A stretch of 64,000 bases of DNA from Bacteroidetes bacterium GWC2_46_850 (GTDB taxonomy: Bacteria > Bacteroidota > Bacteroidia > Bacteroidales > Dysgonomonadaceae): assembly GCA_001768325.1 (NCBI GenBank), contig MENQ01000024.1:1-64000 (forward strand). Reading direction: 5' to 3'. Made by a program: the position numbers and the translations under genes. Positions 1,072 through 17,842 of this stretch are shown one piece after another. Under the pieces are notes generated by a model, which saw only the letters and a program-made list of their open reading frames with translations, searched no databases and was not told where the DNA came from. The first letter of the stretch is position 1. Each line of letters starts with the position of its first letter.

Positions 1072-3585
1072 TTACACGAACTTCAGTGGATTGGGATACT
1101 CTCTTCCTATTGTCTTTTTATACTCGATCAGAAACGAGAGATATCTTATTTTGGCTTCTTCGTTTCTTTTCAGTTTCTGCAGAGCTTTGACCAGATAGGT
1201 TATGGCCGTGTCGCTGACCGGATCAAGATGAAATGCAGCATCTGCCAGTTCTACAGTCGTGAGATATGCTTCCTTTTCGTAACTCCATTCAATGGCATGA
1301 ATCAGCAACGGTTCAATGCTTTTTTCGGTATTTTCTTTCAGGATGTCGTATTCACGGTCGTTCTCGTTTTTCAAAAATTTTCCCCGGTTGACAATGGCTA
1401 TGAATTCTTTTAGTTCCTCCTCACTGTGACTTCGCGAAAGAATTGCCATGCATTTCGTATAGTCGCAATAAAGAGGATTTTCCTGTATAAGTTTGAATAC
1501 TCCTTTTTCGTATAATAACTCGATGCCATCAAGTTCTTCCAGTATTTTACGCAATCTGTTCAGCGTTACGTTTCGTGTGTTCTTGACTGTGTTAGCGGGT
1601 TTTTCGGGCCACAATGTTTCACTGAGATGTTGCGATGTGATGCCATCCTCTACAGCACTAAACTGTAGGAGCAGACAAAATGTCTCTTTTAGTTTTTTGC
1701 TGAACAGGTAAGTAATATCCCTGTTGCTGCGATTGCGAACCATAAAATCACCAAACAGATAAATCGCATTGGCCCGGAAAGTCGATTCCCTTTTCTGGCT
1801 TGTTTTAAAGGGTATTCCCATATCGGGGAAAAAGGTTTCTTTGCGGTTATATTTTAGGAAACGCACGAGAAAAATGGCGACAATCAGCAGGATGATTCCC
1901 GCGAGGATGAAAACGATGAGCATCTTGCCGGAACCCTCTTTCGTTGCGTAATTGACCAGTTCCTGACTGGTAATCGGTGGAAATGTGAGTGAGTATACAT
2001 GCACCTCGGAAGCGATGTCGTCGGAAAACTCATGTACTACCGCATAGAGAGCATGCAGATCATCGTCATAATAGAGGTTTGCATTGGTATTTATCTTATC
2101 GGAGAATATCGGAATGGAATCACCCAATATGGTAAAATCACCATTTTTCAACGAATACCGGTACAACCTGAGGTACGACTGGGTGAAATGCTCCGGATAG
2201 CATAAGGTATAAAATGAAGCATCGTCATGGATCACCATACCCCGCACGGGCACCATGTTTTCCTGATCCCACGGGATCTCCCATACCCTGGATATCTGTG
2301 ATGTCGGCAGATCCAATTGATAAAGGTCGTAATAGTAGGTTCTTCCCAATAATTGATCACCCGAACTGTTTCCCATCCCGCCGAAGAGATAAAGCTTGTC
2401 GCTATTTTCGGGATGACCCATTGCGGTGAAATACCGTGGCGTGATACCACCTTCATTTTGGGTAGAGCGTACATCCCATTGATGAGTCCCGATATCGTAA
2501 CGGTAAAAAATATTGCTGTAGCGCATATTGCCGAACCCGCCGAATATCAGGTATTGCTGTTTTGACGGATCGAAATAAGAGCCATGGTGATGAAGTTGAG
2601 TTGGTAACCGGTCATAGCTCTCAATACGCCATTCGTAGCTGTTAAGGTCAAGACTTGCGACTGTGGGGCCCTGGTAGGTGCTGTCGTAATATACCTCATA
2701 GCTATAGAGCTTATCATGTAAAGGATCAATAAAGTTGGTTCCCAATCTGAGGTCGACCGGGCAAGGTTCTTTGAAGACCACCGTCTCCTGATTTGCAGTT
2801 CTCAGGTTATAAATGATGATGGAATCTTTGTTGAAATGATACAATTCTTTTCGTCCTGCATGATAATTTGTTCCCGAAACCTGTCTTGACCGGGTCGATG
2901 TTTCCGGTTTCCAGTGATAGGCATCATTGATCAACCAGTAGGGGTTCACCACATTACCCATTACAGTCCCTTTGCTGTTATGTACCTGATTACCCTGATA
3001 CTCCATGAGCGGAAACCGGTAGCTTCGTGTGTTGCCCACGCTCAGGTTCCGGATCGCAAAAGGAGCTACATCGATGATATGATCACTTTTACCGAATACA
3101 AGGGTGGGTGTGAACGATTCAGAAAGAGGAACATTGGCTGCGCTGTAAGTGTTGTCACCGATGGTCAGTGTGATCATATCGTTTTCCAGATCGAATGAAA
3201 TAGCTATCTGCAACCATTCACGGGGTGGATATTGACTCTTTTTCAATGAAATGTGGATCAGATTGTTCTTGCCTTCCTCGTTGAATAGAAACAGATGGTT
3301 TTCCCCGTGTCCGTCATAGAAAAGATTAAAAACAGATCCATTTTCTGATGATTTAATTCTGAGGATGTTACCGATATCGGTTGTCATATATAACGATAAC
3401 CGAAAACTGATGCTAAAGTGATCTTCAAAGGTAACAGGACGTTCACTGAAAACATCATACGACGTTCTCTGTTCGATGGGATATCCGTTCCCAAGAAAAC
3501 GAAGCCCTTCCGCAGAAAGAGGTGAGGAGAAAAAGGCGCAAAGAAACAGGAGAATGTATATTGTTTTTTTTGTCAATGTAACCAT
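1072..3585 (-). CDS. Membrane-spanning Kelch-SARP one-component transcription regulator
   Basis: The protein has 837 residues. Residues 1-25 form a signal peptide. Residues about 45-195 look like a concanavalin A/LamG-type beta-sandwich, and 235-540 hold Kelch-type repeats (for example QQYLIFGGFGNMRYSNIFYR at 343). A single membrane span lies at 553-577 and is followed by RFLKYNRKE, which fits a cytoplasmic C-terminus. Residues 605-705 resemble an OmpR/SARP winged helix (YLFGDFMVRNR; LSETLWP; TLNRLRKILEEL), and 705-837 look like a helical BTAD/TPR-like segment. The arrangement suggests periplasmic glycan sensing coupled directly to DNA binding, with no kinase or receiver domain. It is divergent from the PUL 1 operon and is the natural candidate for its activator. 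Automated annotation could miscall it galactose oxidase because of the Kelch repeats. Domains are read by eye; the regulatory role is inferred. Confidence 0.8.
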   Translation of the reverse strand: MVTLTKKTIYILLFLCAFFSSPLSAEGLRFLGNGYPIEQRTSYDVFSERPVTFEDHFSISFRLSLYMTTDIGNILRIKSSENGSVFNLFYDGHGENHLFLFNEEGKNNLIHISLKKSQYPPREWLQIAISFDLENDMITLTIGDNTYSAANVPLSESFTPTLVFGKSDHIIDVAPFAIRNLSVGNTRSYRFPLMEYQGNQVHNSKGTVMGNVVNPYWLINDAYHWKPETSTRSRQVSGTNYHAGRKELYHFNKDSIIIYNLRTANQETVVFKEPCPVDLRLGTNFIDPLHDKLYSYEVYYDSTYQGPTVASLDLNSYEWRIESYDRLPTQLHHHGSYFDPSKQQYLIFGGFGNMRYSNIFYRYDIGTHQWDVRSTQNEGGITPRYFTAMGHPENSDKLYLFGGMGNSSGDQLLGRTYYYDLYQLDLPTSQISRVWEIPWDQENMVPVRGMVIHDDASFYTLCYPEHFTQSYLRLYRYSLKNGDFTILGDSIPIFSDKINTNANLYYDDDLHALYAVVHEFSDDIASEVHVYSLTFPPITSQELVNYATKEGSGKMLIVFILAGIILLIVAIFLVRFLKYNRKETFFPDMGIPFKTSQKRESTFRANAIYLFGDFMVRNRSNRDITYLFSKKLKETFCLLLQFSAVEDGITSQHLSETLWPEKPANTVKNTRNVTLNRLRKILEELDGIELLYEKGVFKLIQENPLYCDYTKCMAILSRSHSEEELKEFIAIVNRGKFLKNENDREYDILKENTEKSIEPLLIHAIEWSYEKEAYLTTVELADAAFHLDPVSDTAITYLVKALQKLKRNEEAKIRYLSFLIEYKKTIGREYPNPLKFV

Positions 3586-3609: not shown

Positions 3610-3641
3610 CAAAGATACCATAATCAGTGCCATATTGCAAA
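3610..3641 (-). promoter_or_regulatory. Bacteroidetes-type promoter of the Kelch-SARP gene
   Basis: Read on the minus strand, the -7 box is TATCTTTG (3617-3610) and the -33 box is TTTG (3641-3638), 20 bp apart. This matches the Bacteroides primary sigma consensus. Transcription would start about 18 nt before the ATG at 3585. Confidence 0.65.
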
Positions 3642-3716: not shown

Positions 3717-3749
3717 AATGTAACCCCAATGTAACCCTTTGGATAACCC
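3717..3749 (+). promoter_or_regulatory. Three tandem TAACCC repeats, candidate operator of PUL 1
   Basis: TAACCC occurs at 3721-3726, 3732-3737 and 3744-3749, with periods of 11 and 12 bp. The first two copies are part of an identical 10-mer, AATGTAACCC (3717-3726 and 3728-3737). The repeats flank the -33 TTTG (3738-3741), and the last ends 9 bp before the -7 box. SARP regulators are known to bind heptamer-like direct repeats at 11-bp spacing overlapping the -35 region, so the layout fits the SARP-like domain of the divergent regulator. Binding is inferred. Confidence 0.6.
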
Positions 3750-3766
3750 GCCCGCTTTTATATTTG
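3738..3766 (+). promoter_or_regulatory. Bacteroidetes-type promoter of PUL 1
   Basis: TTTG (3738-3741) and TATATTTG (3759-3766) are 17 bp apart, slightly short of the usual 19-21 bp. Such a spacing would suit a promoter that needs an activator. The predicted leader before the ATG at 3881 is about 108 nt. The rest of the 295-bp divergent region holds only A/T-rich sequence. Confidence 0.6.
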
Positions 3767-3880: not shown

Positions 3881-5686
3881 ATGAAAAACTTGAGAAAATT
3901 GTTCTACACGTCTTTGATTGTGTTTGTATCAATCGGATTGCTTTCCTGTGAAAAGGAAGAATCTTCACAGAGCCTGCTCGGTGAAGTGGCCGGAATGGTA
4001 AAAGATGTTGATGGTAACCCCATCCCGGGAGTAAGTGTGACTCTTTCCGGAATCAATGAGGAGGACATGGTTGTGACCACCGGAGAGGATGGGAGGTATC
4101 ATATTAACAATGTAACCTTGAAAACACATGCCATCATGTTCTCTAAGGAAGGCTGGCAGACAGTTAGTGTAACCGTTACAGCCGATAAGTTTGGTGGAAA
4201 TAGCAGTGCGAATGCCGATATTGAAATGATCAAAGCTTCGGCAAAAATCATCGGAGTTGTGACCGATGCCAAGAATAATGGAGCCCCGCTTGCCGGAGTG
4301 ACCGTCTCTGCCGGACCGGCCGGAACAGTAATCACCGGAACCGACGGCAGGTACATCATCGCAAATCTGGTAGAAGATAAATACACACTCACTTTTACCA
4401 AACAAGACTATGTGACGATTGTAAAAGAGATTACAGCCACCGATTTTGTGGATGAAACGGTGACGATTGATCTCAGAATGGGCGGTGAAGAACTTCTCCG
4501 TGGCTTAACGGCCGATGATCTGCAACATGCCGAGAAATGGTACTATAATGAATACCGGGGTGGAAGAAACGCAGATGAATATCCACACTGGGACTGGGCT
4601 TGCAATTATATGTCTACCCTTGATTTCCGTGGTGCGTGGGAAGAACAGAATGAAGGTACTACGCTTCAGATCAGGAATAATGACAACGACCGTAAGAATC
4701 CGGCCGATTTGGATGTGTTTGATTCCTTCGTATTCGGTAGTAAGTTAATTACTGCAGAAAATAAGATTCTCTCTTTGAGGGCACGAACGCACAATGCTGA
4801 TGTATCTGCTCCTGCATATTTTGGTGTGCAGGTGGTGGACCTCTCCGAAAATCAACCCAAATCAGTAAAAATTGGGACAACACGTACGTATGGTTCCGGC
4901 AATTATGCCGACTTTGAATTCGACCTGAGTGCTTATGTGGGGAAAGAGGTTATTCTTGCCATTGGAATTTATCGTCAATCGACAGGTGATTATTGGAAAC
5001 AGCTTGTGTTGCGTGCCATCCGGTTTGCCGACAGAAAAGTGGAAAATTATGGCTGGCTGCCCGGTACCGAAGTGATAGACGGATGGAAACTGACCAAAGA
5101 GACAGTGCGTTCAACCATGCCACATACCAAAAAGTCGTTCACAGGGATCAGTCCCGTTACCGGAGATCGCGGCAATTATGTAAATGCCTACCGCGCCTGG
5201 AGAACTGTCGGACATGTGGGTGCCGAATGGTCGTTTGTGCCACTGAAAAAAGACCCTGAAGTATTCCCGTCGGAAGGCTACATCCTTAAAACAAGAAATA
5301 CCCCCGATGTTGATACGAAAGTGCCGGAAGCATACATCTATGCCAAGTTTTCAATTGCAACTGGAAGCAACCAGTTCACACTCAATACCCGTAACTTCGG
5401 CAGTAATTTTACCTATTTTAAAATCACCGCTATCGGAAATGACGGGACGGTAACCCATCTTTCGCCGGCATCCAATACCGCCCAGGAGGCCATGGCAGCC
5501 GCCAACGGAACCTGGAAATTCAAACATGGCAATGGCGGTGCAGATAATCCGGAAGGATATGCCTCATTCAAATATGATCTTACACAGTTTAACGGCACAG
5601 ATGTCACCCTGTCTATCGGTGTATATAATGGGGAAGCAAATACCGGCGAGAACAAGCTGGTTATACACAGTATTGAATTGAAATAA
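3881..5686 (+). CDS. Surface lipoprotein with two carboxypeptidase-regulatory-like domains
   Basis: The 601-residue protein starts with a lipoprotein signal (lipobox GLLSC, Cys23). Two beta-sandwich domains of the CarboxypepD_reg type follow at about 33-115 and 118-200, each with the pattern V.D..G.P..GV.V and a later TG.DGRY. The remaining 400 residues contain two related beta-rich stretches (about 215-385 and 395-601) rich in aromatic residues, which I do not recognise. They resemble discoidin-like or jelly-roll carbohydrate-binding modules. As the first gene of the operon, 11 nt before a GH76 gene, it probably binds glycan at the cell surface in the role of SusE/SusF proteins. Function is inferred from position and lipidation only. 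Confidence 0.7.
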   Translation: MKNLRKLFYTSLIVFVSIGLLSCEKEESSQSLLGEVAGMVKDVDGNPIPGVSVTLSGINEEDMVVTTGEDGRYHINNVTLKTHAIMFSKEGWQTVSVTVTADKFGGNSSANADIEMIKASAKIIGVVTDAKNNGAPLAGVTVSAGPAGTVITGTDGRYIIANLVEDKYTLTFTKQDYVTIVKEITATDFVDETVTIDLRMGGEELLRGLTADDLQHAEKWYYNEYRGGRNADEYPHWDWACNYMSTLDFRGAWEEQNEGTTLQIRNNDNDRKNPADLDVFDSFVFGSKLITAENKILSLRARTHNADVSAPAYFGVQVVDLSENQPKSVKIGTTRTYGSGNYADFEFDLSAYVGKEVILAIGIYRQSTGDYWKQLVLRAIRFADRKVENYGWLPGTEVIDGWKLTKETVRSTMPHTKKSFTGISPVTGDRGNYVNAYRAWRTVGHVGAEWSFVPLKKDPEVFPSEGYILKTRNTPDVDTKVPEAYIYAKFSIATGSNQFTLNTRNFGSNFTYFKITAIGNDGTVTHLSPASNTAQEAMAAANGTWKFKHGNGGADNPEGYASFKYDLTQFNGTDVTLSIGVYNGEANTGENKLVIHSIELK

Positions 5687-5697
5687 TCTTTAGCAGC

Positions 5698-7149
5698 ATG
5701 AATAGGATGAAAAATTTAATTATTGTACTTGTAAGTCTCCTGTGGCTCATGACCTGTGCCTGCGGAGAAAACGGACCGGATAAGGGTTTCCAGGAGCCCC
5801 CACCACAGGAAGAACGGCTGGCAGAGAGAAATCTGACACGTGCCATAGAACTTGCCGACAACACCATCAATGCGCATTTCACCGGAAGTGGGATGGCCAT
5901 GGCCAGATATTATAACCCTTATACCGGCGCAAGATCCGATGAAAAAGGGAGTGTATGGATGTATACCAGCGCCATTGAAGCGGTAAATGCAATCCTGCAC
6001 GCTCTTCAGGCCGAGAAAGTAGCGGACGATGCATCACTATACAACAAACATTATACCCGGTTTGTGGAAGTGTTGGATAATTTATATGACAATGCCGATT
6101 ATTATCTCGGTACATTCTCACTTACCTCGTATACACAAACCAAAGAATGGACCGTATACGGAGTGAACCGGGGGGCTTCGAAGGGAGGTGCCAAAGTAGA
6201 GGGCATAGAGAATGTGTATGACGACCAAATGTGGCTGGTACGGGAACTGATGGAATCATATAAACTGACAGGCAAGGAGACCTACCTGGAAAAAGCCGAA
6301 TACCTGACAGAATATGTACTGGATGGATGGGATTGCACGATTGATGCGAATGGTAATGAGGTAGGCGGTATCACATGGGGTCCCGGCTACGTGACCAAAC
6401 ATGCCTGTAGTAACGGTCCTATGGTCAGTCCCCTTGTATGGCTTCATGAACTGTATAAAGAGAAAAACGACGAAGTGATCCATCGTTTTATCGATGCGGG
6501 TGATATGAAAACAAGAAAAACCGTATCCCTGAAGAAAAGCGATTACTACCTCGCATTTGCCAAAAAGATTTATGAATGGCAAAAAGAAGCGTTGCTACGT
6601 GGAGACGGAGTCTATGATGACATGATGGGTGGGTGTACGCCTGGTGCACCCCAGTTGGAGACAATAGATGGCGTAACCTACCGGAAAGGAATCACCTGTC
6701 GCGATAAGGTAGGGCCGGCAATCAGCTACAACAGCGGTACCATGCTCTCCGGAGCTGCCGATCTATATCGGGCTACTGCGGATGAAAAATACCTCTCTGA
6801 CGGAAAGAAACTTTCTGATGCAAGTTTTGCCTTTTTTGCAAAGAAAGGAACCAACCTTCCCGACTATTATACCTACAACATCAGTGGTTTCAATAACTGG
6901 TTTAATGGTGTATTGATGCGAGGCTATGTAGATCTTTTTCCGGCAAATAAAAACGTTTCAACGTACATCGCCACATTTCAGCAGAATCTCGACTATGGGT
7001 ATGATCACTTTCTATACAAGGGTTTTCTCCCCACAAATCTGTTGGTGGGATGGAGCCAGAATAACAGCAACAACAGGATTGAAGGAATGTTTAGCTTTGC
7101 TTTCGCTGCTGAATATGCTGTGTTATCACGCTACGAGTTGACTAAATAA
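5698..7149 (+). CDS. GH76 family lipoprotein, putative endo-alpha-1,6-mannanase
   Basis: A lipoprotein signal (MTCAC, lipid Cys about 20-22) precedes an all-helical (alpha/alpha)6-type domain. The paired acidic motif NVYDDQMW (Asp175-Asp176) matches the catalytic Asp pair of GH76 alpha-1,6-mannanases. It is followed by the family's LT..YL..A..L.EYVLDGWDCT pattern, then WGPGYVTKHACSNGP and a later YNSGTMLSGAADLYRAT segment. At 483 residues it is close to the family's usual length. It would cut the alpha-1,6-mannan backbone at the cell surface and supply oligosaccharides to the SusCD pair encoded 20 nt downstream. The family call rests on motifs and is fairly secure; substrate is inferred from the GH92 gene in the same locus. 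Confidence 0.83.
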   Translation: MNRMKNLIIVLVSLLWLMTCACGENGPDKGFQEPPPQEERLAERNLTRAIELADNTINAHFTGSGMAMARYYNPYTGARSDEKGSVWMYTSAIEAVNAILHALQAEKVADDASLYNKHYTRFVEVLDNLYDNADYYLGTFSLTSYTQTKEWTVYGVNRGASKGGAKVEGIENVYDDQMWLVRELMESYKLTGKETYLEKAEYLTEYVLDGWDCTIDANGNEVGGITWGPGYVTKHACSNGPMVSPLVWLHELYKEKNDEVIHRFIDAGDMKTRKTVSLKKSDYYLAFAKKIYEWQKEALLRGDGVYDDMMGGCTPGAPQLETIDGVTYRKGITCRDKVGPAISYNSGTMLSGAADLYRATADEKYLSDGKKLSDASFAFFAKKGTNLPDYYTYNISGFNNWFNGVLMRGYVDLFPANKNVSTYIATFQQNLDYGYDHFLYKGFLPTNLLVGWSQNNSNNRIEGMFSFAFAAEYAVLSRYELTK

Positions 7150-7169
7150 CACAAATAACATACATTGGA

Positions 7170-10100
7170 ATGATGAAGACTTTTTTTATAAATGCGAAAT
7201 TATTTTCGCAAATGATCCTGTTTACACTTTTACTTATTCCTGCCACAGTGCTGGCACAGGGTGTAAATGTGACGGGAGTGGTGAGAGACAGCGGCAATGA
7301 ACCGTTACCCGGGGCGACCGTAGTCATCAAAAATAGTACCGTGGGAACAGTGACCGACATGGATGGGAAGTATACCATCGTGGTTCCTGCCAATGCAGTG
7401 CTTGAATTCAATTTTTTAGGGTTCACAACAAAAGAAGAACCTGTGAACGGACGCGCTGTCATTGATGTAACACTGGAATATGAGGAGCAGAGCCTCGATG
7501 AGGTGGTTGTGGTGGGATATGCCACACAAAAAAAGGTCACCCTGACGGGAGCCGTTTCGGGTGTGAAAGGTTCTGACATGATTCAGACAAGAAATGAAAA
7601 TCCGCAGAATATGCTCACAGGGCGAATTGCCGGCGTGAGGGTATGGCAGAAAAGTGCCGAACCGGGATCGTTCAACAACAGTTTCGATATTCGTGGTCTG
7701 GGAAGTCCGTTGGTGGTAATCGATGGAATACCCCGCAGTGCCGGCGAGTTTCAGCGACTCAATCCCAACGACATTGAAGACGTGTCGGTACTTAAAGATG
7801 CATCGGCAGCCATTTACGGCGTAAGAGCCGCCAATGGTGTGGTGCTTGTTACCACAAAGAAGGGATCGAAAGATGGGAAAACCGATGTGGCTTTCAATGC
7901 GTCCTATACTTTTCAGAAACCTTCGGGAATGCCGGTGCTTGCCGATCCTTTTGAGACAATGACGCTTTACAACGAGCGTGCAATGAACAACATCAATGGT
8001 GGTAACATCATTTTCCCCGAGAGTATGTTCGAAGCATACCGCAATGGGACACGCCGCACCACAGACTGGACTTCCTTGCTCTTCTCCGATTACTCTCCCC
8101 AGACCCAGCAGGATCTGAGCATTACCGGAGGAAGCGAGAAAACCCAATATTACATCGGAATGGGTTATCTCTTTCAGGAAGGTTTTTTCAAGTCGGGTGA
8201 TTTGAATTACAACAAGATAAACCTGCGCTCCAATATCACCACAGAGATCGTCGACGGACTGACCTTCGACCTGAACCTGAGTGGTATTGCCGATCAACGC
8301 AACAACCCCTATTCGGGTTCGGTGGATATCATCCGCAACTACTGGCGTCAGGGAGTACTCTTTCCTGCATACGCCGATCCGGAGAATACCATGCTCAACT
8401 ATGAAGGATTGGATCTGGAGGAAAACACAGTGGCAAAGATGACCTCCGATATCTCCGGTTACCGAAAATATGCCCAGAAGTATTTTATGTCGTCGGCAGG
8501 ACTTAACTATGATTTTGGAAAAATTTCCGATGTATTGAAAGGTCTTTCGGCTAAAGCACTGGTGAGCTATGATTACCGGATGGATGATAACAACATCAAC
8601 CGCAGAGAGTACTATCAGTATATGTACAATGATTTGACGGGCAACTATGATGCGAAACTGTATAATAACAGTTCTCCCAATCAGATCAGAAGAGAACTCT
8701 ACAGCAAGCAGCAGATATTGGGACAGTTCATCTTGAACTACAACAGGCAGTTTGAAGGATTACACAATGTAAGCGGTATCCTGGGCTGGGAAACCCAGAA
8801 ACGTACCGGTGATAACTTTTATGCACAACGTGATCTCGCCTTCGGCATGGAATACCTTTTGGCAGGTGTGGATGAAAATCAGTTAGGAGGCATGCAAAGC
8901 GGACTCAACGATATTTACGAACTGGCCAATTCGGCCCTGATAGGTAGGGCAAATTATACGTATGCCGACCGTTATATTGCGGAAGCACAATTCCGTTATG
9001 ACGGATCTTCCAAGTTCGCCAAAGGACATCAGTGGGGTTTCTTTCCATCTGCTTCTGTCGGATGGCGAGTATCAGAAGAACCTTTCTTTAAGGAGTGGGA
9101 GAGTGCATCTTTTGTAGACCAGCTTAAATTGCGGGCAAGTTATGGCGTACTGGGTGATGACGGAGAACTACAATATGACTGGGCTACCGGTTATACTTAT
9201 CCCGCCACTTCCGGAAATGCGGAAAAAGGATATTACAATCAATATGCTCCGGGTTATATTTTTGGAGATGAGTTTGTGTACGGTGTATCCACGCTCGCTC
9301 TTCCCAACAGGCTCATAACCTGGTTTACTGCCCGTACGCTCGACGTGGGTGTAGATTTTGAAGGTTGGAATGGTCTTTTTGGTTTTTCCTTCGACTTCTT
9401 TAACAGGGAAAGACATGGACGTTTTGCACGTCGGTCGGGTGATCTTCCCACCGTGGTGGGTGCAACGGCACCCAGAGAGAATCTCGATAGCGACCGCCAT
9501 TTTGGTATGGATCTGGAGCTCTCACACCGCCACAGGATTGGAGAGTTTTATTATCGGGTGAAGGCAATTGGCACCATTACCCGTCAACAGTACCTTACTG
9601 CTTCGGAAAAAGGCCCTTACGGTAACTCGTACGACAGGTGGCGTAACGACAACCTTACAAACCGTTATCAGGGTATGCAGTTTGGATACGAGTCGGCCGG
9701 ACGCTATGAAAGCTGGGAAGACATCTGGAGGTATCCCATCTATAAGGACAGGAACATCCTGCCGGGTGACTATAAATATGAGGACTGGAATGGTGACGGA
9801 GAGATAAATGGGTTGGATGTACACCCATTCGCGTTTGATCAGACTCCCTGGTTAAATTATAGTCTCACCTTCGACGGAAATTACAAAAATATGGATCTAA
9901 GCATCCTCCTGCAGGGATCGGCTTTGGGTTCCATGGAGTACCGGGAGCCGCTCTACTCAATCTGGGGAAGTAACGGGGGAGGCACATTGGTGCAATACCT
10001 CGACCGTTGGCATCCTACGGATGCGCTGGCAGACCCCTATGATCCGGAAACAGAGTGGATCGGAGGTTATTACGGGTTTACGGGTAACTATCCGTTTGGA

Positions 10101-10340
10101 AATTCAAGATTCAACCGCGTCAGTACCGCCTATCTCCGTCTGAAGAGTATTGAAGTGGGTTACACATTGCCGAAACTGGAATCGTTCTCATCGATGGATT
10201 TGCGGCTTTTTGCTAATGCATATAACTTGCTGACATTCACCGGTGTCAGGTTTGTGGACCCGGAGCATCCCGACGATGATTTGGGAAGGATGTATCCGCT
10301 GAACAAAACGTTTACCGTAGGACTTTCTCTTAAATTCTAA
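7170..10340 (+). CDS. susC: SusC/RagA family TonB-linked outer membrane transporter
   Basis: The 1056-residue protein has a signal peptide (LIPATVLAQG) and a CarboxypepD_reg-like domain (GVVRDSGNEPLPGATVVIKN, about 31-110). The TonB-box region SLDEVVVVGYATQKK is at about 108-122. A plug domain follows (ENPQNMLTGRIAGVRV, LVVIDGIPR, DIEDVSVLKDASAAIYGVRA), then a beta-barrel ending in the typical aromatic strand TFTVGLSLKF. It imports oligosaccharides across the outer membrane, powered by TonB, with the SusD protein encoded 20 nt downstream as lid. Two start codons, at 7170 and 7173, are possible. Family call is secure; the transported glycan, probably a mannooligosaccharide, is inferred. Confidence 0.96.
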   Translation: MMKTFFINAKLFSQMILFTLLLIPATVLAQGVNVTGVVRDSGNEPLPGATVVIKNSTVGTVTDMDGKYTIVVPANAVLEFNFLGFTTKEEPVNGRAVIDVTLEYEEQSLDEVVVVGYATQKKVTLTGAVSGVKGSDMIQTRNENPQNMLTGRIAGVRVWQKSAEPGSFNNSFDIRGLGSPLVVIDGIPRSAGEFQRLNPNDIEDVSVLKDASAAIYGVRAANGVVLVTTKKGSKDGKTDVAFNASYTFQKPSGMPVLADPFETMTLYNERAMNNINGGNIIFPESMFEAYRNGTRRTTDWTSLLFSDYSPQTQQDLSITGGSEKTQYYIGMGYLFQEGFFKSGDLNYNKINLRSNITTEIVDGLTFDLNLSGIADQRNNPYSGSVDIIRNYWRQGVLFPAYADPENTMLNYEGLDLEENTVAKMTSDISGYRKYAQKYFMSSAGLNYDFGKISDVLKGLSAKALVSYDYRMDDNNINRREYYQYMYNDLTGNYDAKLYNNSSPNQIRRELYSKQQILGQFILNYNRQFEGLHNVSGILGWETQKRTGDNFYAQRDLAFGMEYLLAGVDENQLGGMQSGLNDIYELANSALIGRANYTYADRYIAEAQFRYDGSSKFAKGHQWGFFPSASVGWRVSEEPFFKEWESASFVDQLKLRASYGVLGDDGELQYDWATGYTYPATSGNAEKGYYNQYAPGYIFGDEFVYGVSTLALPNRLITWFTARTLDVGVDFEGWNGLFGFSFDFFNRERHGRFARRSGDLPTVVGATAPRENLDSDRHFGMDLELSHRHRIGEFYYRVKAIGTITRQQYLTASEKGPYGNSYDRWRNDNLTNRYQGMQFGYESAGRYESWEDIWRYPIYKDRNILPGDYKYEDWNGDGEINGLDVHPFAFDQTPWLNYSLTFDGNYKNMDLSILLQGSALGSMEYREPLYSIWGSNGGGTLVQYLDRWHPTDALADPYDPETEWIGGYYGFTGNYPFGNSRFNRVSTAYLRLKSIEVGYTLPKLESFSSMDLRLFANAYNLLTFTGVRFVDPEHPDDDLGRMYPLNKTFTVGLSLKF

Positions 10341-10360
10341 TCTTTTGAGTATATATTAAA

Positions 10361-12427
10361 ATGAAGAAAATGAATAAAATAGTTCAACTTGTACTGGCTT
10401 TGTTCCTGTTGACCACTGCATGTGCAGATCTGGACATTCCGCCGAAAAATATTATCAGCGATGAAGATCTGCTGACCAATGAATCGGGCATGGAGATCTA
10501 CATGGCCCGGATGTACAGCAACATGCCGTTCGAAGATTTCAAATATATGGCCGAATGGGGCGTTGAATTCAACTCCTGGCTCGGAGCCATGGGGATTGAA
10601 GGCACGGGTGAAGCATTGAACCGCGATGGTATCTCCCGGGCATTTACTTCTGAGCGGACTCCCTATTGGGGTAAGGCATTTACCCTGCTCAGAGATGCCA
10701 ATTATCTGATAGAGACTTTGCCGCTTTACGAAGCTTCTTTTCCTGAGAAGATGTACAATCATTATCTGGGTGAGGCTTATTTTGTGAGAGCATTTGTTTT
10801 TGACGCCATGGCACGCCGGTTTGGTGGTGTGCCGCTGGTGACGAAGGTGATCCAATACCCGGCAGCACAGGATGCGCTGGAGGTGCCTCGTGCATCTGAG
10901 GAGGAGACCTGGGATCAGGTATTGGCCGACTTTAACCGGGCAGCCGAACTGTTGTCTGAAAAGAGTCCCAAAAGCGGCTATGCCAACAAATATGTGGCTC
11001 TGGCGTTCAAGTCGGAAGCCATGTTATACGCCGGAAGCGTAGCCAAATACAATGAGAAGGTATCAGGCAGGCTCACCGGATTTGGAGAGAAGACCGGCGT
11101 CAGAGTCATAGGTTTTGCCGAGGATGCATGGCAAGCTGCTTCTGAGAAATACTTCCGGGAAGCATACCTTGCAGCACAGGAGATCATCAAAGAGGGAGGC
11201 TATTCACTTTATAAAAAGAAATGGGCTGCTAATAATCCCGAAGCACAATACCAAAATATGGTGGATATGTTCAGTGATCCGGAAAGCCCCGAGAATATCT
11301 ACGTGAAAAAATATGCATACCCGACCCTCACGCACGGCTATGATGCCTACAGCGCACCGTTCATCTTCAAGGCTCCCCTGGCATCGGGTACCTGTGTCAC
11401 GCTAGACTTCCTGGAACTTTATGAAGGTTTTGACAGATATCCTGACGGCACAGTAAAAGTGACCACCGGAAATACGAATACAGCGGGCAAGTATCTGATG
11501 TACGACTCACCCCTCGACTTTTTCAAAAATGCCGAACCGCGACTGCGCGCTTATGTGATCTTTCCGGGCGACAGGTTCAAAGGAAAGGATATCGAGATAC
11601 GGGCAGGGGTATATACAGGTAGCGAACCCATCGACCCCCTATTCAACAATTATACCTACCAGAGTGCAGAAACAAGGTACCAAAATCTGGATGCTTACAA
11701 GCAACAACCCAAAACGCTTTATCTCAGTCCAAGAGAAGGCAGCGGTCAGGATACACTGATTTACAACGGCGCTAAAATGACTGCGGCTGGTGCAAACGGA
11801 CCTTTCTATGATAACGGGGAAGGATGTCTGACAGGCCTCTACGGAAGAAAGTGGCTCAATGATGATCCTTCCTTTGAGGCAGGTGAGGGGAAATCGGATC
11901 AGCATTTTGTGCTGATGCGTTATGCCGAGGTATTATTGAATGCTGCTGAAGCAGCTGTTGAACTATCCCTGGCAGGACAATCTTCACCCGATGGATCAGA
12001 TCTTTTGCAGGTTGCTACCGATAATGTCAACCTTATCCGGGAGAGAGCCGGTGCTTCATTGCTTTCTTCTCCGATCATAGCCAGTGACGAAGGACGTAAT
12101 ATCGTACGCAAGGAGAGACGCAAGGAGTTGGCTCTGGAACATAAAACCAAGTGGGATATCCGTCGTTGGCGCGTGCAACATTACGAAAACAGGGATGGTT
12201 TCTGGGGTGAAGAGAGAAACAAGGATGTCTTCAGCAACAACAACCGTTACAGATTTCGTGGACTTTACCCATTCTTTTCAACCGAGAGCGGGAAGTACTT
12301 CTTCGATGCCCGTTTTCAATGGGTGAGCCTGAAGACCTTTGAATACAACGTGGTAGATTATTACTTTTCCATTCCTGGCGGTGAGGTGACGAAGAGTCCT
12401 GTAATCGACCAACAACCAAACAGATAA
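10361..12427 (+). CDS. susD: SusD/RagB family nutrient-binding lipoprotein
   Basis: The lipobox TTAC (Cys at about residue 21) is followed by the SusD-family N-terminus (LDIPPKNIISDEDLLTNESG). The TPR-like core contains YLGEAYFVRAFVFDAMARRFGGVPLVTKV, split here at residue level as HYLGEAYFVRAF and MARRFGGVPLV. The C-terminal RagB motif includes HFVLMRYAEVLLNAAEAA and IVRKERRKELALEHKTKWD. At 688 residues it is longer than the usual 500-600, with the extra length in the middle segment 300-480. It forms the surface lid of the SusC transporter encoded just upstream and binds the incoming glycan. Family call is secure. Confidence 0.95.
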   Translation: MKKMNKIVQLVLALFLLTTACADLDIPPKNIISDEDLLTNESGMEIYMARMYSNMPFEDFKYMAEWGVEFNSWLGAMGIEGTGEALNRDGISRAFTSERTPYWGKAFTLLRDANYLIETLPLYEASFPEKMYNHYLGEAYFVRAFVFDAMARRFGGVPLVTKVIQYPAAQDALEVPRASEEETWDQVLADFNRAAELLSEKSPKSGYANKYVALAFKSEAMLYAGSVAKYNEKVSGRLTGFGEKTGVRVIGFAEDAWQAASEKYFREAYLAAQEIIKEGGYSLYKKKWAANNPEAQYQNMVDMFSDPESPENIYVKKYAYPTLTHGYDAYSAPFIFKAPLASGTCVTLDFLELYEGFDRYPDGTVKVTTGNTNTAGKYLMYDSPLDFFKNAEPRLRAYVIFPGDRFKGKDIEIRAGVYTGSEPIDPLFNNYTYQSAETRYQNLDAYKQQPKTLYLSPREGSGQDTLIYNGAKMTAAGANGPFYDNGEGCLTGLYGRKWLNDDPSFEAGEGKSDQHFVLMRYAEVLLNAAEAAVELSLAGQSSPDGSDLLQVATDNVNLIRERAGASLLSSPIIASDEGRNIVRKERRKELALEHKTKWDIRRWRVQHYENRDGFWGEERNKDVFSNNNRYRFRGLYPFFSTESGKYFFDARFQWVSLKTFEYNVVDYYFSIPGGEVTKSPVIDQQPNR

Positions 12428-12449
12428 TAACGTTAACATAGATAGTCGT

Positions 12450-13259
12450 ATGAACAAGATAGTATTTTTATTGGTTTCTCTCCTCTTGCTTGGTTCCTGT
12501 AGCATGTTTGAGCTGGATAACTACGAGGCTCCTTCGGAGACACTGGAGGGGGAAGTCGTGGACGCAGCGACCGGAGAACCGGTGCTCACAGACCAGGGTA
12601 GTGAAGGAATCAGGGTGCGCCTTACGGAGCTCAGCTGGGGTGATAATGCAACCCATAACCCCGATTTTTTCTGTATGCCCGACGGTACCTTCCGGAATAC
12701 CAAACTTTTTAAAGGGGAGTATAATGTGAGAATTGACGGCCCATTTATTCCGTTGTTGAGGGAAGATGATCGCGGGGTACCCATTGCCGACGAAACGCAG
12801 ACTATGCAGATCAAGGGTGTGACGAAGACCAGGTTTGAAGTACAGCCCTTTCTGAATGTGGAATGGGTGGAAGAGCCTGTTGTGATCAACGGCAAGATTC
12901 GGGCCAAGGTGAAAGTGACCCGAGGCGTATCTGAGGAAGAGTTCCGGCAGAAAATAGAACCCATGGGCGGATACAGCAGCACCTTCCTGAATGTAACCGA
13001 CATCCAGCTTTTTGTGAGCTATTCTTCTGCTGTGGGCTATCGTGCCCGGGATGAAAGATGGTCTAGATCGATCGAATATTCCGGCTCATCGTTCACGGAT
13101 TTGCTGGGTGAAACCATCACCATCGAGTCGAACGGAACCATTCCTCCAGGACGGGTCGTCTTCATTCGGGCGGCTTCACGGATAAATTACGATACCCCCC
13201 GGGGTAGCGGTACCCGGCGATGGAATTATAATGAACCGCTGGAGGTGATGATCCCGTGA
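12450..13259 (+). CDS. DUF3823-type surface lipoprotein
   Basis: The 269-residue lipoprotein (lipobox LLGSC, Cys17) begins LFELDNYEAP-like and continues with a beta-sandwich carrying GEVVDAATGEPVLTDQGSEG and CMPDGTFRNTKLFKGEYNV. I recognise these as features of the DUF3823 family (PF12866), which usually lies next to SusD genes. A second domain from about residue 130 resembles an Ig-like fold. It lies 22 nt after susD and is the last gene before a terminator-like hairpin, so it belongs to the binding/uptake block of PUL 1. A role as an accessory glycan-binding protein (SusE/F-like) is inferred; no enzyme motif is visible. Confidence 0.8.
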   Translation: MNKIVFLLVSLLLLGSCSMFELDNYEAPSETLEGEVVDAATGEPVLTDQGSEGIRVRLTELSWGDNATHNPDFFCMPDGTFRNTKLFKGEYNVRIDGPFIPLLREDDRGVPIADETQTMQIKGVTKTRFEVQPFLNVEWVEEPVVINGKIRAKVKVTRGVSEEEFRQKIEPMGGYSSTFLNVTDIQLFVSYSSAVGYRARDERWSRSIEYSGSSFTDLLGETITIESNGTIPPGRVVFIRAASRINYDTPRGSGTRRWNYNEPLEVMIP

Positions 13260-13340: not shown

Positions 13341-15515
13341 ATGAGAAAATTATGGATCGCATTTTTTACGTTATTGGGTATGCAGCTGTATGCCCAGGAG
13401 GCGAAAGAGGTGCGCACTACTTTCCAGACATCCCGTGAGTGGAGGCCCACCATCGATGTGAGAGCCGACGCGGTCATGGTCTACGGGGTGGGAGGAAACC
13501 CTTCCGACAAATCGGGGAAAGTCCCTTTTGAAGAAAGGATACGTTCATGGAGAGAGAAAGGATACACCGCTCATTACATGACCGGCATAGCCTGGGGTGA
13601 GTATCAGGATTATTTCACCGGGGAGTGGGACGGTAAGATGCACCTCGATGAAGGGCAGGTTGAGCTGAACGGCGATACAATCTGGCATGGGCATATGGTA
13701 CCCTATATTGTACCCACCGATAATTTCCTTACCTATCTGAAGGAACGACATGTAAAAAGGGCCATCGACGCCGGCATTGAAGCCATCTTTATGGAGGAGC
13801 CCGAGTTTTGGACCAGAGCAGGCTACAGTGAGGCTTTTAAACGGGAATGGGAAAAGTTTTATGGTTTTCCCTGGCGTGCACAGCATCTGTCGCCCGAAAA
13901 CAGCTATCTCTCCAACAAACTGAAATATCATCTCTATTATAAGGCACTCGATGAGGTCTTTTCCTATGCCAAGGAATATGGAAAAAGCAAGGGAATGGAG
14001 GTGAAGTGTTATGTTCCCACCCATTCACTGGTCAACTATTCCCAATGGAAAATCGTCAGTCCCGAAGCAAGCCTGGCTTCACTGCGTTCGGTCGATGGGT
14101 ATATCGCCCAGGTGTGGACCGGTACTTCCCGAGAACCGAACTATTTTAATGGAAAGATAAAAGAGCGGGTGTTCGAAACTGCTTTTCTGGAGTATGGCTC
14201 CATGGAATCGATGACGGCACCCACCGGACGAGAGATCTTCTTCCTGACTGATCCCATTGAGGACTGGCCGCGCGACTGGGTGGATTACAAGAAAAACTAT
14301 GAGGCTACATTTGCCGCCCAGCTACTCTATCCCCGCATCAATAAATATGAGATCATGCCCTGGCCGGAACGTATTTACGAGGGTTTGTACCGTACCAGTC
14401 GCGACAGTGATAAAAAAGAACGGATCCCCCGACACTATTCCACGCAGATGCAGGTGATGATCAACACACTTGGTGAGATGCCGCAGACCACCCAGCGAGT
14501 AGCGGGTTCTCACGGTATTGGTGTCATGATGTCCAATTCACTCATGTTCCAACGTTTTCCCGAACATGCGGGCTACGAAGATCCGCAACTGGCCAACTTT
14601 TACGGACAAACGCTTCCTTTACTCAAGAGAGGAGTACCTGTGGAGACGGTGCACATGGAAAACCTTTCCTACCGCGAAACACTGCAGAATATGCATCTGC
14701 TTATCCTTTCTTACTCCGGCATGAAGCCGATGGAAGCGGATGCGCACACACACCTGGCTGACTGGGTAAACAATGGAGGGGTACTTCTCTATTGCGGCAG
14801 GGACAGCGATCCTTTTCAGCAGGTGCCGGAATGGTGGAACAGCGGCACGAACAATTTTGTTACTGCTGCCGGTCATCTGTTTTCACAACTTGGATTAAGC
14901 GGTTCATTGAATGAAGGTGAATACAAGGTAGGTAAAGGTAAAGTCTATATCCTGCGAAACGACCCCAAAGAATTTGTTCTTAACGAAAATGGAGATCAAA
15001 AGTTTGTCGGTCTGTTGCAAAGGTTGTATCGTGAGTCAGCAGGTAAGAACCTTCTTCTTAAGAACTATTTCAGCCTGGAAAGAGGCCCTTACAGGATTAT
15101 ATCTGTACTCGACGAGTCGATGTCTTCCTCTCCCTATGTGGCAAAAGGCAATTTTATTGATCTCTTTGATCCCGAAATACCTGTGTTGCGAGAAAAGATT
15201 GTCCGTCCCGGCGAACAGGCTTTGCTTTTCGATATAAACTCCCTCAAAGAGAAGAAGCCCCGCGTGCTTGCCACAGCAGCACGTGTGAGTGATGAGAATA
15301 ACACGGCTCATAACTATAGCTTCACCGTGAAAAGTCCGGTAAATACCACCAATGTGATGCGCATTCTTTTGCCGGAGAAACCGCAAATCAGCGAGATAAG
15401 GAATAGTGACGGTGAAGAAATTGATTACGAGATGTCATGGGATCAGAAAAGCAAAACCGCTTTTCTCCGGTTTGAAAATAACCCCGCCGGCATATCGGTC
15501 ATGCTAAAATGGTAA
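13341..15515 (+). CDS. Secreted putative glycoside hydrolase with TIM-barrel-like domain, family unknown
   Basis: The 724-residue protein has a cleavable signal peptide (MQLYAQE, cut near residue 19). Residues about 35-400 alternate helices and strands like a TIM barrel and include MEEPEFW (151-157) at the end of a strand, a plausible site for a catalytic acid. Residues about 430-560 resemble the Rossmann-like trimerisation domain of GH42 beta-galactosidases (LLILSYSGMKPME; WVNNGGVLLYCGRDSDPF). The rest is beta-rich. I cannot assign it to a numbered GH family. It starts 18 nt after a terminator-like hairpin and 36 nt before the GH92 gene, so it probably acts on the same alpha-mannoside-containing glycan. 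The catalytic role is inferred. Confidence 0.6.
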   Translation: MRKLWIAFFTLLGMQLYAQEAKEVRTTFQTSREWRPTIDVRADAVMVYGVGGNPSDKSGKVPFEERIRSWREKGYTAHYMTGIAWGEYQDYFTGEWDGKMHLDEGQVELNGDTIWHGHMVPYIVPTDNFLTYLKERHVKRAIDAGIEAIFMEEPEFWTRAGYSEAFKREWEKFYGFPWRAQHLSPENSYLSNKLKYHLYYKALDEVFSYAKEYGKSKGMEVKCYVPTHSLVNYSQWKIVSPEASLASLRSVDGYIAQVWTGTSREPNYFNGKIKERVFETAFLEYGSMESMTAPTGREIFFLTDPIEDWPRDWVDYKKNYEATFAAQLLYPRINKYEIMPWPERIYEGLYRTSRDSDKKERIPRHYSTQMQVMINTLGEMPQTTQRVAGSHGIGVMMSNSLMFQRFPEHAGYEDPQLANFYGQTLPLLKRGVPVETVHMENLSYRETLQNMHLLILSYSGMKPMEADAHTHLADWVNNGGVLLYCGRDSDPFQQVPEWWNSGTNNFVTAAGHLFSQLGLSGSLNEGEYKVGKGKVYILRNDPKEFVLNENGDQKFVGLLQRLYRESAGKNLLLKNYFSLERGPYRIISVLDESMSSSPYVAKGNFIDLFDPEIPVLREKIVRPGEQALLFDINSLKEKKPRVLATAARVSDENNTAHNYSFTVKSPVNTTNVMRILLPEKPQISEIRNSDGEEIDYEMSWDQKSKTAFLRFENNPAGISVMLKW

Positions 15516-15550: not shown

Positions 15551-17842
15551 ATGAAGAAAATTAATTTGACGGGATTCTTTTATTTTTTTGGGATCATCAT
15601 TACACTGGGTGCCCGCCCTTTCGCACCGGTAGATTATGTCAGTACACTGGTCGGCACAGACTCCAAATATGAACTTTCCACCGGGAACACCTACCCGGCC
15701 ATCGCGTTGCCCTGGGGGATGAACTTCTGGTCACCCCAAACCGGTAAGATGGGAGATGGGTGGATGTACACCTACCATGCCGATAAGATCAGGGGGTTTA
15801 AACAGACCCATCAGCCCAGCCCCTGGATGAACGACTATGGCCAGTTCTCACTGATGCCCGTCACGGGAAAGCCTCATTTCGACGAAGAGGAGAGAGCAAG
15901 CTGGTTCTCGCACAAGGCTGAGGTGGCCAGGCCTCACTATTACAGGGTGTATCTGGCCGATCATGACGTGACTACCGAGATCACGCCGACAGAACGGGCT
16001 GCCATGTTCCGGTTTACCTTCCCGGAAAGTGACAGTTCTTTCGTCATCGTCGATGCATTCGACAAAGGTTCCCACATCCGGATTATTCCCGAAGAACAGA
16101 TGATCACGGGATACACAACCCGTAACAGTGGTGGCGTTCCCGATAACTTCAGGAACTATTTTGTGATCCGTTTCGATAAACCCTTCACCTGGTTTGGTGC
16201 CGTGAAAGAGGGTGTCATCGCCGAAGAGGAAACAGCTTATACAGGGAATCATGCCGGTGCGGTAATCGGTTTTCAAACAACCAACAACGAGCAGGTGCAT
16301 GCCCATGTGGCGTCCTCCTTTATCAGTGAAGCACAGGCGTTGCTGAACCTGCATGAACTGGGAGACGACTCTTTCGAGGGGATCATGATGAAGGGCGAAT
16401 CACGTTGGAATGAAGTACTGGGAAGAATCAGGGTAGAGGATGACAACATCGACAACATCCGTACCTTTTATTCGAACCTCTATCGCACGGTGCTCTTTCC
16501 GAGGAACCTGTCGGAGATCGATGCCGATGGCAATATTTATCACTACAGCCCGTATAACGGCAAGGTGCTTCCCGGTTACATGTTTACCGATACCGGTTTC
16601 TGGGATACGTTCAGAAGCCTCTTTCCCTTTCTCAATTTTGTTTACCCCTCCGAGAACGTGAAGATGCAGGAAGGATTGGTCAATGCCTATAAAGAGAGCG
16701 GCTTTCTTCCCGAATGGGCCAGTCCCGGCCACCGGAATATTATGGTGGGCAACAATTCTGCCTCGGTTGTGGCAGACGCCTACATAAAAGGGTTGAGAGG
16801 ATACGATACCGAAACACTCTGGGAAGCGCTCAAACATGGTGCAAACAGCGTGCATCCCACGGTACCTGCATCCGGCCGTACCGGCTATGCAGAATATAAC
16901 AAATATGGTTATATCCCCAACAATGTGGGAATTAGCCAAAACGTGGCCCGTACATTGGAGTATGCCTATAACGACTGGAGCATTTACAGCTTCGGAAAAG
17001 CCTTGGGCAAGCCTGAGTCGGAAATTGCCATCTACGGCGAACGGGCAATGAACTACAAAAACCTCTTCAACCCGGAGCATAAGCTGATGGCGGGGCGTGC
17101 CGACGACGGCTCCTTTTCAGCGGAATTTGATCCGGCGGCCTGGAGCCGCGATTTCACCGAGGGCAACAGCTGGCACTACTCGTGGTCCGTTTTTCATGAT
17201 CCACAGGGATTGATCGACCTGATGGGAGGCAAAAAATCTTTCACCGGCATGCTCGACTCGGTATTTCTTATTCCCGGTGCAGAGGGGCTGAAGAGCCGTT
17301 CCATGATTCACGAGATGCGGGAAATGCAGGTGATGGACATGGGCCAGTACGCACACGGAAACCAGCCTATTCAGCACATGGTTTACCTTTACAACTACGC
17401 CGGTGAGCCCTGGAAGGCACAATACTGGTCGCGCGAGATCATGGATAAACTCTATTCGGATACACCCGACGGTTACTGCGGTGATGAAGACAACGGGCAG
17501 ACATCGGCCTGGTATGTTTTCTCGGCTCTGGGCTTTTATCCTGTCTGCCCCGGGAGCAACGAGTACATCCTGGGATCCCCTCTTTTTCGTTCTGCAGAGA
17601 TCGCTCTGGAGAATGGAAAGTCGTTAAGGATTACCACCAAGGAAAATGGAGCGGACAACCGATATATCCGCGAAATGAAACGAAACGGCAAAAAATACAG
17701 CCGAAACTTCCTGCGCCACGATGATCTGATGAAAGGTGGTGAGGTGACATTCAGGATGAGCCCCCTGCCCAACAAAGAAAGAGGTACAAAAGAGACTGAT
17801 CTGCCCTATTCTTTCTCGCGAAAAGATAAACCAAATAATTAA
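15551..17842 (+). CDS. GH92 family alpha-mannosidase
   Basis: The sequence begins with a signal peptide and has the GH92 N-terminal pattern VSTLVGTDSKYELSTGNTYP with WGMNFWSPQTG and the IRGFKQTHQPSPWMNDYGQF segment. The catalytic (alpha/alpha)6 domain carries EGNSWHYSW, with Glu537 as the likely acid. It also has CGDEDNGQTSAWYVFSALGF with Asp645 and Asp647 as the likely base pair, by analogy with characterised Bacteroides GH92 enzymes. These are calcium-dependent exo-alpha-mannosidases, usually periplasmic. With 763 residues the length is typical. It would trim mannose from oligosaccharides taken up by the SusCD pair. Linkage specificity cannot be read safely from the sequence. Confidence 0.95.
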   Translation: MKKINLTGFFYFFGIIITLGARPFAPVDYVSTLVGTDSKYELSTGNTYPAIALPWGMNFWSPQTGKMGDGWMYTYHADKIRGFKQTHQPSPWMNDYGQFSLMPVTGKPHFDEEERASWFSHKAEVARPHYYRVYLADHDVTTEITPTERAAMFRFTFPESDSSFVIVDAFDKGSHIRIIPEEQMITGYTTRNSGGVPDNFRNYFVIRFDKPFTWFGAVKEGVIAEEETAYTGNHAGAVIGFQTTNNEQVHAHVASSFISEAQALLNLHELGDDSFEGIMMKGESRWNEVLGRIRVEDDNIDNIRTFYSNLYRTVLFPRNLSEIDADGNIYHYSPYNGKVLPGYMFTDTGFWDTFRSLFPFLNFVYPSENVKMQEGLVNAYKESGFLPEWASPGHRNIMVGNNSASVVADAYIKGLRGYDTETLWEALKHGANSVHPTVPASGRTGYAEYNKYGYIPNNVGISQNVARTLEYAYNDWSIYSFGKALGKPESEIAIYGERAMNYKNLFNPEHKLMAGRADDGSFSAEFDPAAWSRDFTEGNSWHYSWSVFHDPQGLIDLMGGKKSFTGMLDSVFLIPGAEGLKSRSMIHEMREMQVMDMGQYAHGNQPIQHMVYLYNYAGEPWKAQYWSREIMDKLYSDTPDGYCGDEDNGQTSAWYVFSALGFYPVCPGSNEYILGSPLFRSAEIALENGKSLRITTKENGADNRYIREMKRNGKKYSRNFLRHDDLMKGGEVTFRMSPLPNKERGTKETDLPYSFSRKDKPNN

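Follow-up and report, generated by a model that had tools for sequence, protein, structure and literature searches.

Introduction

Regulators of the ToxR/CadC type combine in one chain an N-terminal winged helix of the OmpR type, one membrane span and a periplasmic sensor. In the accessible part of PMC3878776, control of polysaccharide utilization loci (PULs) in Bacteroides is attributed to SusR-like proteins, hybrid two-component systems (HTCS) and pairs of extracytoplasmic function (ECF) sigma and anti-sigma factors; in the same text, SusR, which controls a PUL, is a membrane protein that carries its sensor in the periplasm and its DNA-binding domain in the cytoplasm, and the HTCS_Man systems of B. 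thetaiotaomicron are assigned to alpha-mannan. Here, we analyze a gene for an 837-residue transmembrane protein from Bacteroidetes bacterium GWC2_46_850, located in a stretch of 64,000 nucleotides (contig MENQ01000024.1; hereafter the window) and divergent to a PUL with alpha-mannosidase family genes. We conclude, with a probability of about 0.78, that it encodes an inner-membrane one-component activator of this PUL that senses a periplasmic mannoside; the chain of steps is in part inferred.

Two further lines of published work bear on this protein. Membrane transcription regulators are reported to be enriched in Bacteroidota, and the accessible sections of that report mention neither BTAD nor Streptomyces antibiotic regulatory proteins (SARPs) (PMC10269533). 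According to the part of PMC10936776 that was available, SARPs recognize direct repeats with a spacing of 11 or 22 bp, of which the last is separated from the -10 element by 8 bp; AfsR molecules occupy the -35 region next to one another and engage region 4 of sigma. The PimR site consists of three heptamers with 4-bp spacers, according to the available excerpt of PMC5930380.

Predicted domain architecture of the regulator

The gene is under purifying selection, as shown by orthologue comparisons, and its product contains, in order, a signal peptide, a beta-sandwich, a Kelch beta-propeller, a single membrane span and a two-part C-terminal region (Table 1). AlphaFold2 (AF2) modeled the C-terminal part, with a predicted local distance difference test (pLDDT) score of 90.3, as one unit in which a winged helix (ODB) is followed by BTAD. 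The top fold matches of this model were AfsR and EmbR, in alignments of 14–17% identity, and profile A2, used for the winged helix, matched a response regulator with Response_reg and Trans_reg_C domains (E 1.6e-5). According to these models, the C-terminal part has a SARP fold and DNA-binding domain and membrane span lie in one chain, with a predicted topology of periplasmic sensor, membrane and cytosolic DNA-binding domain. Because a Pfam scan recognized only Kelch and a weak BatA match in the window protein, and none of the NCBIfam models matched it, the DNA-binding assignment is based on fold and profile. Weak NCBIfam matches among 25 members of the family were to AfsR (3/25, best 0.11) and BagI/FevR (2/25, best 0.0015). 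Compared with PDB sequences, the C-domain profile gave a designed TPR as its best match (0.14) and OmpR-type SaeR at 0.75. A hybrid two-component system was ruled out, as no HisKA/HATPase kinase or receiver domain was detected in a Pfam scan up to E 10.

The preliminary description of this DNA, made from the sequence alone, had proposed the same domain order, with a winged helix at residues 605–705 and an end resembling SARP/BTAD. Structure prediction and fold comparison agree with that order and place the span at residues 552–578 and the winged helix at residues ~604–704; the SARP/BTAD guess is backed both by the matches to AfsR and EmbR and by the divergent promoter, where a candidate operator of SARP style is located. 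The ConA-like region was borne out as a predicted beta-sandwich at residues ~26–200; as to a ConA/LamG identity, weak Laminin_G matches were obtained in a few members, the window protein not among them. The best match of this N-terminal domain to PDB sequences was thrombospondin-1, at only E 0.19.

The Kelch repeats adopt a propeller fold; in the fold comparison, eukaryotic Kelch binding domains ranked first for the window protein. Such a propeller might be an enzyme of the NanM type, acting in the periplasm as a mutarotase or epimerase, rather than a sensor. Among 25 members, NanM/YjhT models matched 9 (best 1.3e-4), Pfam NANM 7 (best 0.0032) and a model of a permuted mutarotase 2 (best 2e-7). 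However, matches of this type are expected of Kelch propellers generally, and NCBIfam gave none for the window protein. Considering also the likeness to binding domains and the fusion of the propeller, via the span, to a DNA-binding fold, we regard an enzymatic function as most improbable.

A candidate operator in the divergent promoter

The 295 bp between the regulator gene and the first PUL gene hold three direct TAACCC repeats, spaced by 11 and then 12 bp, followed by TATATTTG. For the primary sigma factor of Bacteroides, the accessible text of PMC7366714 gives the -7 consensus TAnnTTTG together with TTTG near -33. The window box fits the -7 consensus and is thus a predicted -7 box of the PUL promoter. 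Taken as a heptamer, the last repeat (TAACCCG) ends 8 bp ahead of it, and by sequence both the repeat spacing and this distance resemble the published form of SARP operators. The repeats were noticed before the fold matches were known, although the SARP idea was already present in the original observation. A second match to the operator pattern, with two mismatches, at window positions 57065–57092 is probably due to chance, since shuffles gave two matches in 4 of 100 cases, the true site being one of the two. We refer to 3721–3749, a conserved site as judged from the comparisons below, as the candidate operator.

To assess specificity, 29 genomes were scanned, comprising 9 with an orthologue and the 20 listed genomes of the same genus without a homologue (completeness 59–99%); the scan did not extend to 59 other genomes lacking a match or to five genomes of the genus in which only other family members occur. 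The pattern TAAYC-N6-TAAYC-N7-TAACC (11/12 spacing) occurred exactly once in each of eight genomes, always adjoining the regulator. These are seven genomes of the window's genus with an orthologue and G043, and in G044, the ninth genome with an orthologue, the site takes an 11/11 form. None of the 20 genomes without a homologue contained the pattern, and its reversed control matched once in all 29 genomes. The repeats could in principle belong to another factor, with the regulator acting elsewhere or without binding DNA, and the many family loci without such a site would fit this idea. The distribution of the pattern (0/20 same-genus genomes without a homologue, 8/9 with an orthologue), its invariable position next to the regulator and the recurrence of sites beside distant family members make it very unlikely.

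Using a scorer for three TAAYC units at 11–12 bp plus a -7 box, with a threshold of 18 in regulator flanks, we found sites in 28 of 68 family loci vs 14 of 970 pairs of control segments taken from these loci. Exclusion of the 28 loci used or aligned for motif derivation left 9/40 vs 10/547 (Fisher p 7e-7, which is optimistic because the split post-dated the first scoring, an earlier listing had shown some of the unused repeats and the loci are related). When all spacings from 7 to 16 bp were mapped at a score of at least 19, 11/12 was the commonest (14 loci), ahead of 11/11 and 12/11 (8 each) and 12/12 (7). The side spacings 16/12 (8 loci) and 10/12 (7) were discarded, as each coincides with an 11–12 site at the same place, and spacings 8/9 and 14/15 reach a score of 18 in 2/68 and 4/68 loci.

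End-to-end scanning of the 68 loci yielded 26 sites scoring at least 19, and 25 of these lie inside ~700 bp of the regulator gene, among them an oppositely oriented one in L100 and two overlapping ones in L092. In L045 (Bacteroides), the site is ~8 kb from the regulator. The genes after the sites encode PUL-type lipoproteins (9), glycoside hydrolase (GH) family 92 enzymes (4 sites in 3 loci), GH125 (2), SusC (2), a fucosidase (L045; the gene in L046 is alike by eye) and other products (4); three sites are without a gene of 150 amino acids inside 700 bp. In the 19-member orthologue group, 15 loci have the site and 14 of these sites precede alpha-mannoside PUL genes, while L043, which lacks it, is a 4-kb contig. 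The position of the site tracks the target gene: both L092 (G043) and L039 (Dysgonomonas sp. 25) have it on the far side of the regulator, ahead of GH92. Clade C (L097, L103, L104, L105, L107, L110) showed no clear common site in aligned divergent promoters. Considering these comparisons, site and regulator very probably belong together.

Two loci with unusual arrangements deserve mention. Proteiniphilum UBA5267 (L033) has kept the operator directly ahead of GH92, and genes for the lipoprotein, GH76, SusC, SusD and the 724-residue protein were not found in this locus, reflecting either a natural rearrangement or an assembly effect. In L046 from an uncultured Bacteroides (9914–12589), the regulator is split into two reading frames with the adjoining site kept, which represents a pseudogene or an assembly error.

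The same protein and repeats could also serve to repress the PUL until the ligand arrives, or the ligand could be other than a mannoside; relatives that precede the fucosidase gene of L045, the similar gene of L046 and other genes are in line with this. However, 9 bp separate the last repeat from the downstream -7 box and the box stays uncovered, as in promoters activated by SARPs, and 14 of the 15 orthologue-clade sites stand before alpha-mannoside PUL genes. We therefore consider repression or a different ligand unlikely, favor activation and take a mannoside as the likely ligand.

Association with alpha-mannoside genes and family distribution

Homologues of the window GH76, GH92 or 724-residue protein are present in 17 of the 18 loci that score >700 bits to the window protein, L090 being the exception, and GH125, another alpha-mannosidase family, adjoins the regulator in two of those loci (L040, L093). 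The 724-residue protein itself has homologues in six other orthologue-clade loci (L035, L036, L038, L039, L040, L093) and is an unannotated component of alpha-mannoside PULs.

Table 1. Features of the regulator gene, its promoter region and the divergent PUL (window coordinates; residues refer to the regulator).
Feature	Position	Strand	Basis
Transmembrane one-component regulator gene, 837 amino acids	1072..3585	-	Open reading frame list, homologues, purifying selection
Signal peptide, residues ~1-25	3511..3585	-	Sequence; AF2 helix 2-19
Beta-sandwich, residues ~26-200, possibly LamG/ConA-like	2986..3510	-	AF2
Kelch beta-propeller, residues ~219-540	1966..2931	-	Pfam and fold comparison
Transmembrane helix, residues 552-578	1852..1932	-	AF2 and span prediction
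Disordered linker, residues 577-601, pLDDT < 50	1783..1857	-	AF2
OmpR/SARP-type winged helix, residues ~604-704	1474..1776	-	AF2, fold matches, profile
Helical BTAD-like domain, residues ~705-837	1075..1473	-	AF2 and fold matches
Possible own -7 box of the regulator gene, TATCTTTG	3610..3617	-	Consensus only
Predicted operator, TAACCC at 3721, 3732 and 3744; spacings 11 and 12 bp	3721..3749	+	
Predicted -7 box of the divergent PUL promoter, TATATTTG	3759..3766	+	9 bp past last TAACCC
First PUL gene, lipoprotein-like (read from sequence), carboxypeptidase-regulatory-like domains	3881..5686	+	Pfam
GH76 (alpha-mannanase family)	5698..7149	+	
SusC-like (Plug, CarbopepD_reg_2)	7170..10340	+	
SusD	10361..12427	+	
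DUF3823 protein	12450..13259	+	
724-amino-acid PUL protein, no Pfam match	13341..15515	+	
GH92 (alpha-mannosidase family)	15551..17842	+	
GtaA-hairpin/DUF5127/DUF4964 protein	17895..20399	+	

Linkage of homologues to susCD genes, raised in the preliminary description, was counted in 49 loci with 8 kb on both sides, with the near-duplicates L088/L089 and L037/L042 kept in and a long protein required for a SusC call except where the locus ended inside the gene. Of these loci, 23 have a SusC or SusD no more than 4 kb from the regulator and 34 have one inside 8 kb, compared with a rough chance expectation at 8 kb of about a fifth to a quarter in the window's own genome, which has at least 46 SusD genes in 3.75 Mb. 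Fifteen of the 49 loci are without SusC or SusD inside 8 kb, and four genomes with family members (G445, G484, G536, G587) gave no SusD match, so a tie to PULs is not universal in the family. The members from these genomes without a SusD match are L131–L135, and L131, L132 and L133 have a three-repeat site just past the regulator, so the switch may serve other genes there.

Whole-protein homologues were found in 22 of 101 genomes. With the C-terminal part as query, 17 of the 294 genomes searched from the order and 7 of 296 sampled from the phylum contained members; each of the three counts includes the own genome. The membrane span directly precedes the C-domain in 67 of 69 members; L136, one of the two without it, is a distant match with the domain at the N-terminus. 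Three short members (L108, 8696–10213, 505 amino acids; L109, 5059–6594, 511 amino acids; L126, 8682–10121, 479 amino acids) begin with a hydrophobic segment and a small outer domain, after which come a span and the C-terminal part common to the family. A propeller would not fit into these proteins, and the sensor therefore appears exchangeable, being Kelch in most members and shorter in a few.

The window protein belongs to a group of 19 in the tree (SH-aLRT, i.e., approximate likelihood ratio test, 99; quick method), which spans Dysgonomonadaceae, Prolixibacteraceae, Marinilabiliaceae, Chitinophagaceae, Chryseotaleaceae, and Fulvivirgaceae. Proteins from Maribellus and Chryseosolibacter (51–52% identity) are closer to it than those from Dysgonomonas (42–43%), which suggests horizontal exchange. 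A second family member in the own genome (L098, 8671–11235; G000:C7:192530-194989) immediately precedes susC-susD, and three TAATC repeats at 12/12 spacing form a site of its own between regulator and susC. G300 (L110–L115) has six family members and 14 SusD matches, and five of its six loci are without SusC/SusD inside 6 kb. Members also occur on Persicobacter replicons (L029, L030, L031), where that of L031, annotated as a hypothetical protein, directly follows susC and susD.

Proposed mode of action

We propose that the Kelch propeller, perhaps together with the N-terminal beta-sandwich, is exposed to the periplasm, where it would bind a mannoside released by the PUL enzymes. Binding would change the arrangement of the single-span chains in the inner membrane, allowing their cytosolic SARP-fold domains to bind the three TAACCC repeats next to one another. 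By analogy with AfsR, the bound domains would replace the -33 element and bring RNA polymerase to TATATTTG, and transcription of 3881 onwards would start. The preliminary description had suggested an extracellular-to-DNA switch. A SARP-fold output and a candidate operator at the divergent promoter speak for such a switch, whereas the sensor is predicted to be periplasmic, on the inner membrane, and not outside the cell.

Alternatively, with the same protein and operator, the ligand might trigger membrane proteolysis that frees the cytosolic part as a soluble activator. A long linker predicted to be disordered follows directly past the span, and the tail-to-tail neighbor at 169–1053, 18 bp from the regulator gene, encodes a protein of the TraB/PrgY/GumN family, which we take to have metalloprotease relatives. 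However, none of the other 67 family loci contains a homologue (E 1e-5) of this neighbor, which is therefore probably outside the switch; linker and span are the part with the highest nonsynonymous substitution rate (dN) in 3 of 4 orthologue comparisons, and membrane regulators such as CadC act without release. Proteolytic release is thus quite unlikely, and activation by the intact membrane protein remains our preferred explanation.

Several observations weigh against activation through the TAACCC repeats. Regarding the protein, Pfam matches to Trans_reg_C (8/26 members, best 0.0025) and BTAD (4/26, best 0.0041) are weak and missing for the window protein, DUF4919 outscores them in 5/26 members (best 0.00024), and the AF2 models are predictions from a shallow alignment (14 sequences), run as monomers. 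Regarding the site, the repeats were first spotted by eye in relatives' promoters, some of them among the loci scored later; the test of used against unused loci was not blind, and related loci are not independent. The window spacing is 11 then 12 bp rather than 11 and 11. The 11/11 pattern is not specific (none in the window, 4/29 genomes, 7 reversed-control matches), and the 12/12 pattern of other clades is weakly so: it occurs in 13/33 genomes at 17 places, 7 beside the regulator and 10 away, with 7 reversed-control matches. Finally, no score of 18 is reached near the regulator in 40 of the 68 family loci, whose regulators may recognize other sequences, and the orthologue loci L035, L036, and L038 contain no site of score 19 in 22 kb.

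Comparison with known systems

Beyond this locus, we lean narrowly towards a further, phylum-wide class of PUL regulators, the membrane-tethered SARPs, in which three tethered protomers would occupy TAACC repeats separated by one helical turn and, as sigma adaptors, replace the missing -33 element of a Bacteroidota promoter, under control of an exchangeable periplasmic sensor. With a recognizable fold and a defined candidate operator at an almost constant distance from the -7 box, such a class would permit regulon prediction from sequence and would make testable how a membrane-held transcription factor finds and activates its own promoter. In addition, SARP-type activation would reach far beyond actinobacteria: what has been thought an actinobacterial device for antibiotic control would then be a general wiring of a periplasmic sugar signal to DNA without phosphotransfer. 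The matches listed by our literature search, which covered work outside subscription access, contained no description of a Kelch-SARP or membrane SARP regulator in Bacteroidota; so far as found, neither the pairing of Kelch with a SARP fold, nor a SARP unit placed C-terminally after a span, nor the operator has been described.

The layout as such has a precedent. The preliminary description held the domain order to be without parallel among PUL regulators, but SusR is described in the accessible part of PMC3878776 with the same succession of periplasmic sensor, membrane and cytosolic DNA-binding domain that is predicted here. Since the gross layout is the same, the regulator represents a variant rather than a new principle. 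It is set apart from SusR, as described, by its Kelch propeller and SARP fold. SusR is built from other domains, and its DNA-binding domain differs from the SARP fold. Like the HTCS, the protein would be a single-chain PUL regulator with a periplasmic sensor; unlike them, it has no kinase or receiver domain and would couple sensor and DNA directly, without phosphotransfer. With ToxR and CadC it shares the OmpR-type winged helix, one span and a periplasmic sensor in one chain, but the order is reversed, with the winged helix C-terminal and accompanied by BTAD.

Canonical SARPs are cytosolic actinobacterial proteins with an N-terminal SARP unit, whereas the unit described here is C-terminal, in a membrane protein and in Bacteroidota, so we speak of a SARP-fold output and not of a SARP. 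As in the SARP domains of AfsR and EmbR from Streptomyces and Mycobacterium, a winged helix and BTAD are predicted to form one fold unit, and direct repeats about one helical turn apart lie next to the -10/-7 box, here by sequence evidence. Differences are the position of the unit behind a periplasmic sensor and a membrane span, the 11/12 spacing, the repeat TAACC and the lack of a nucleotide-binding or FHA part.
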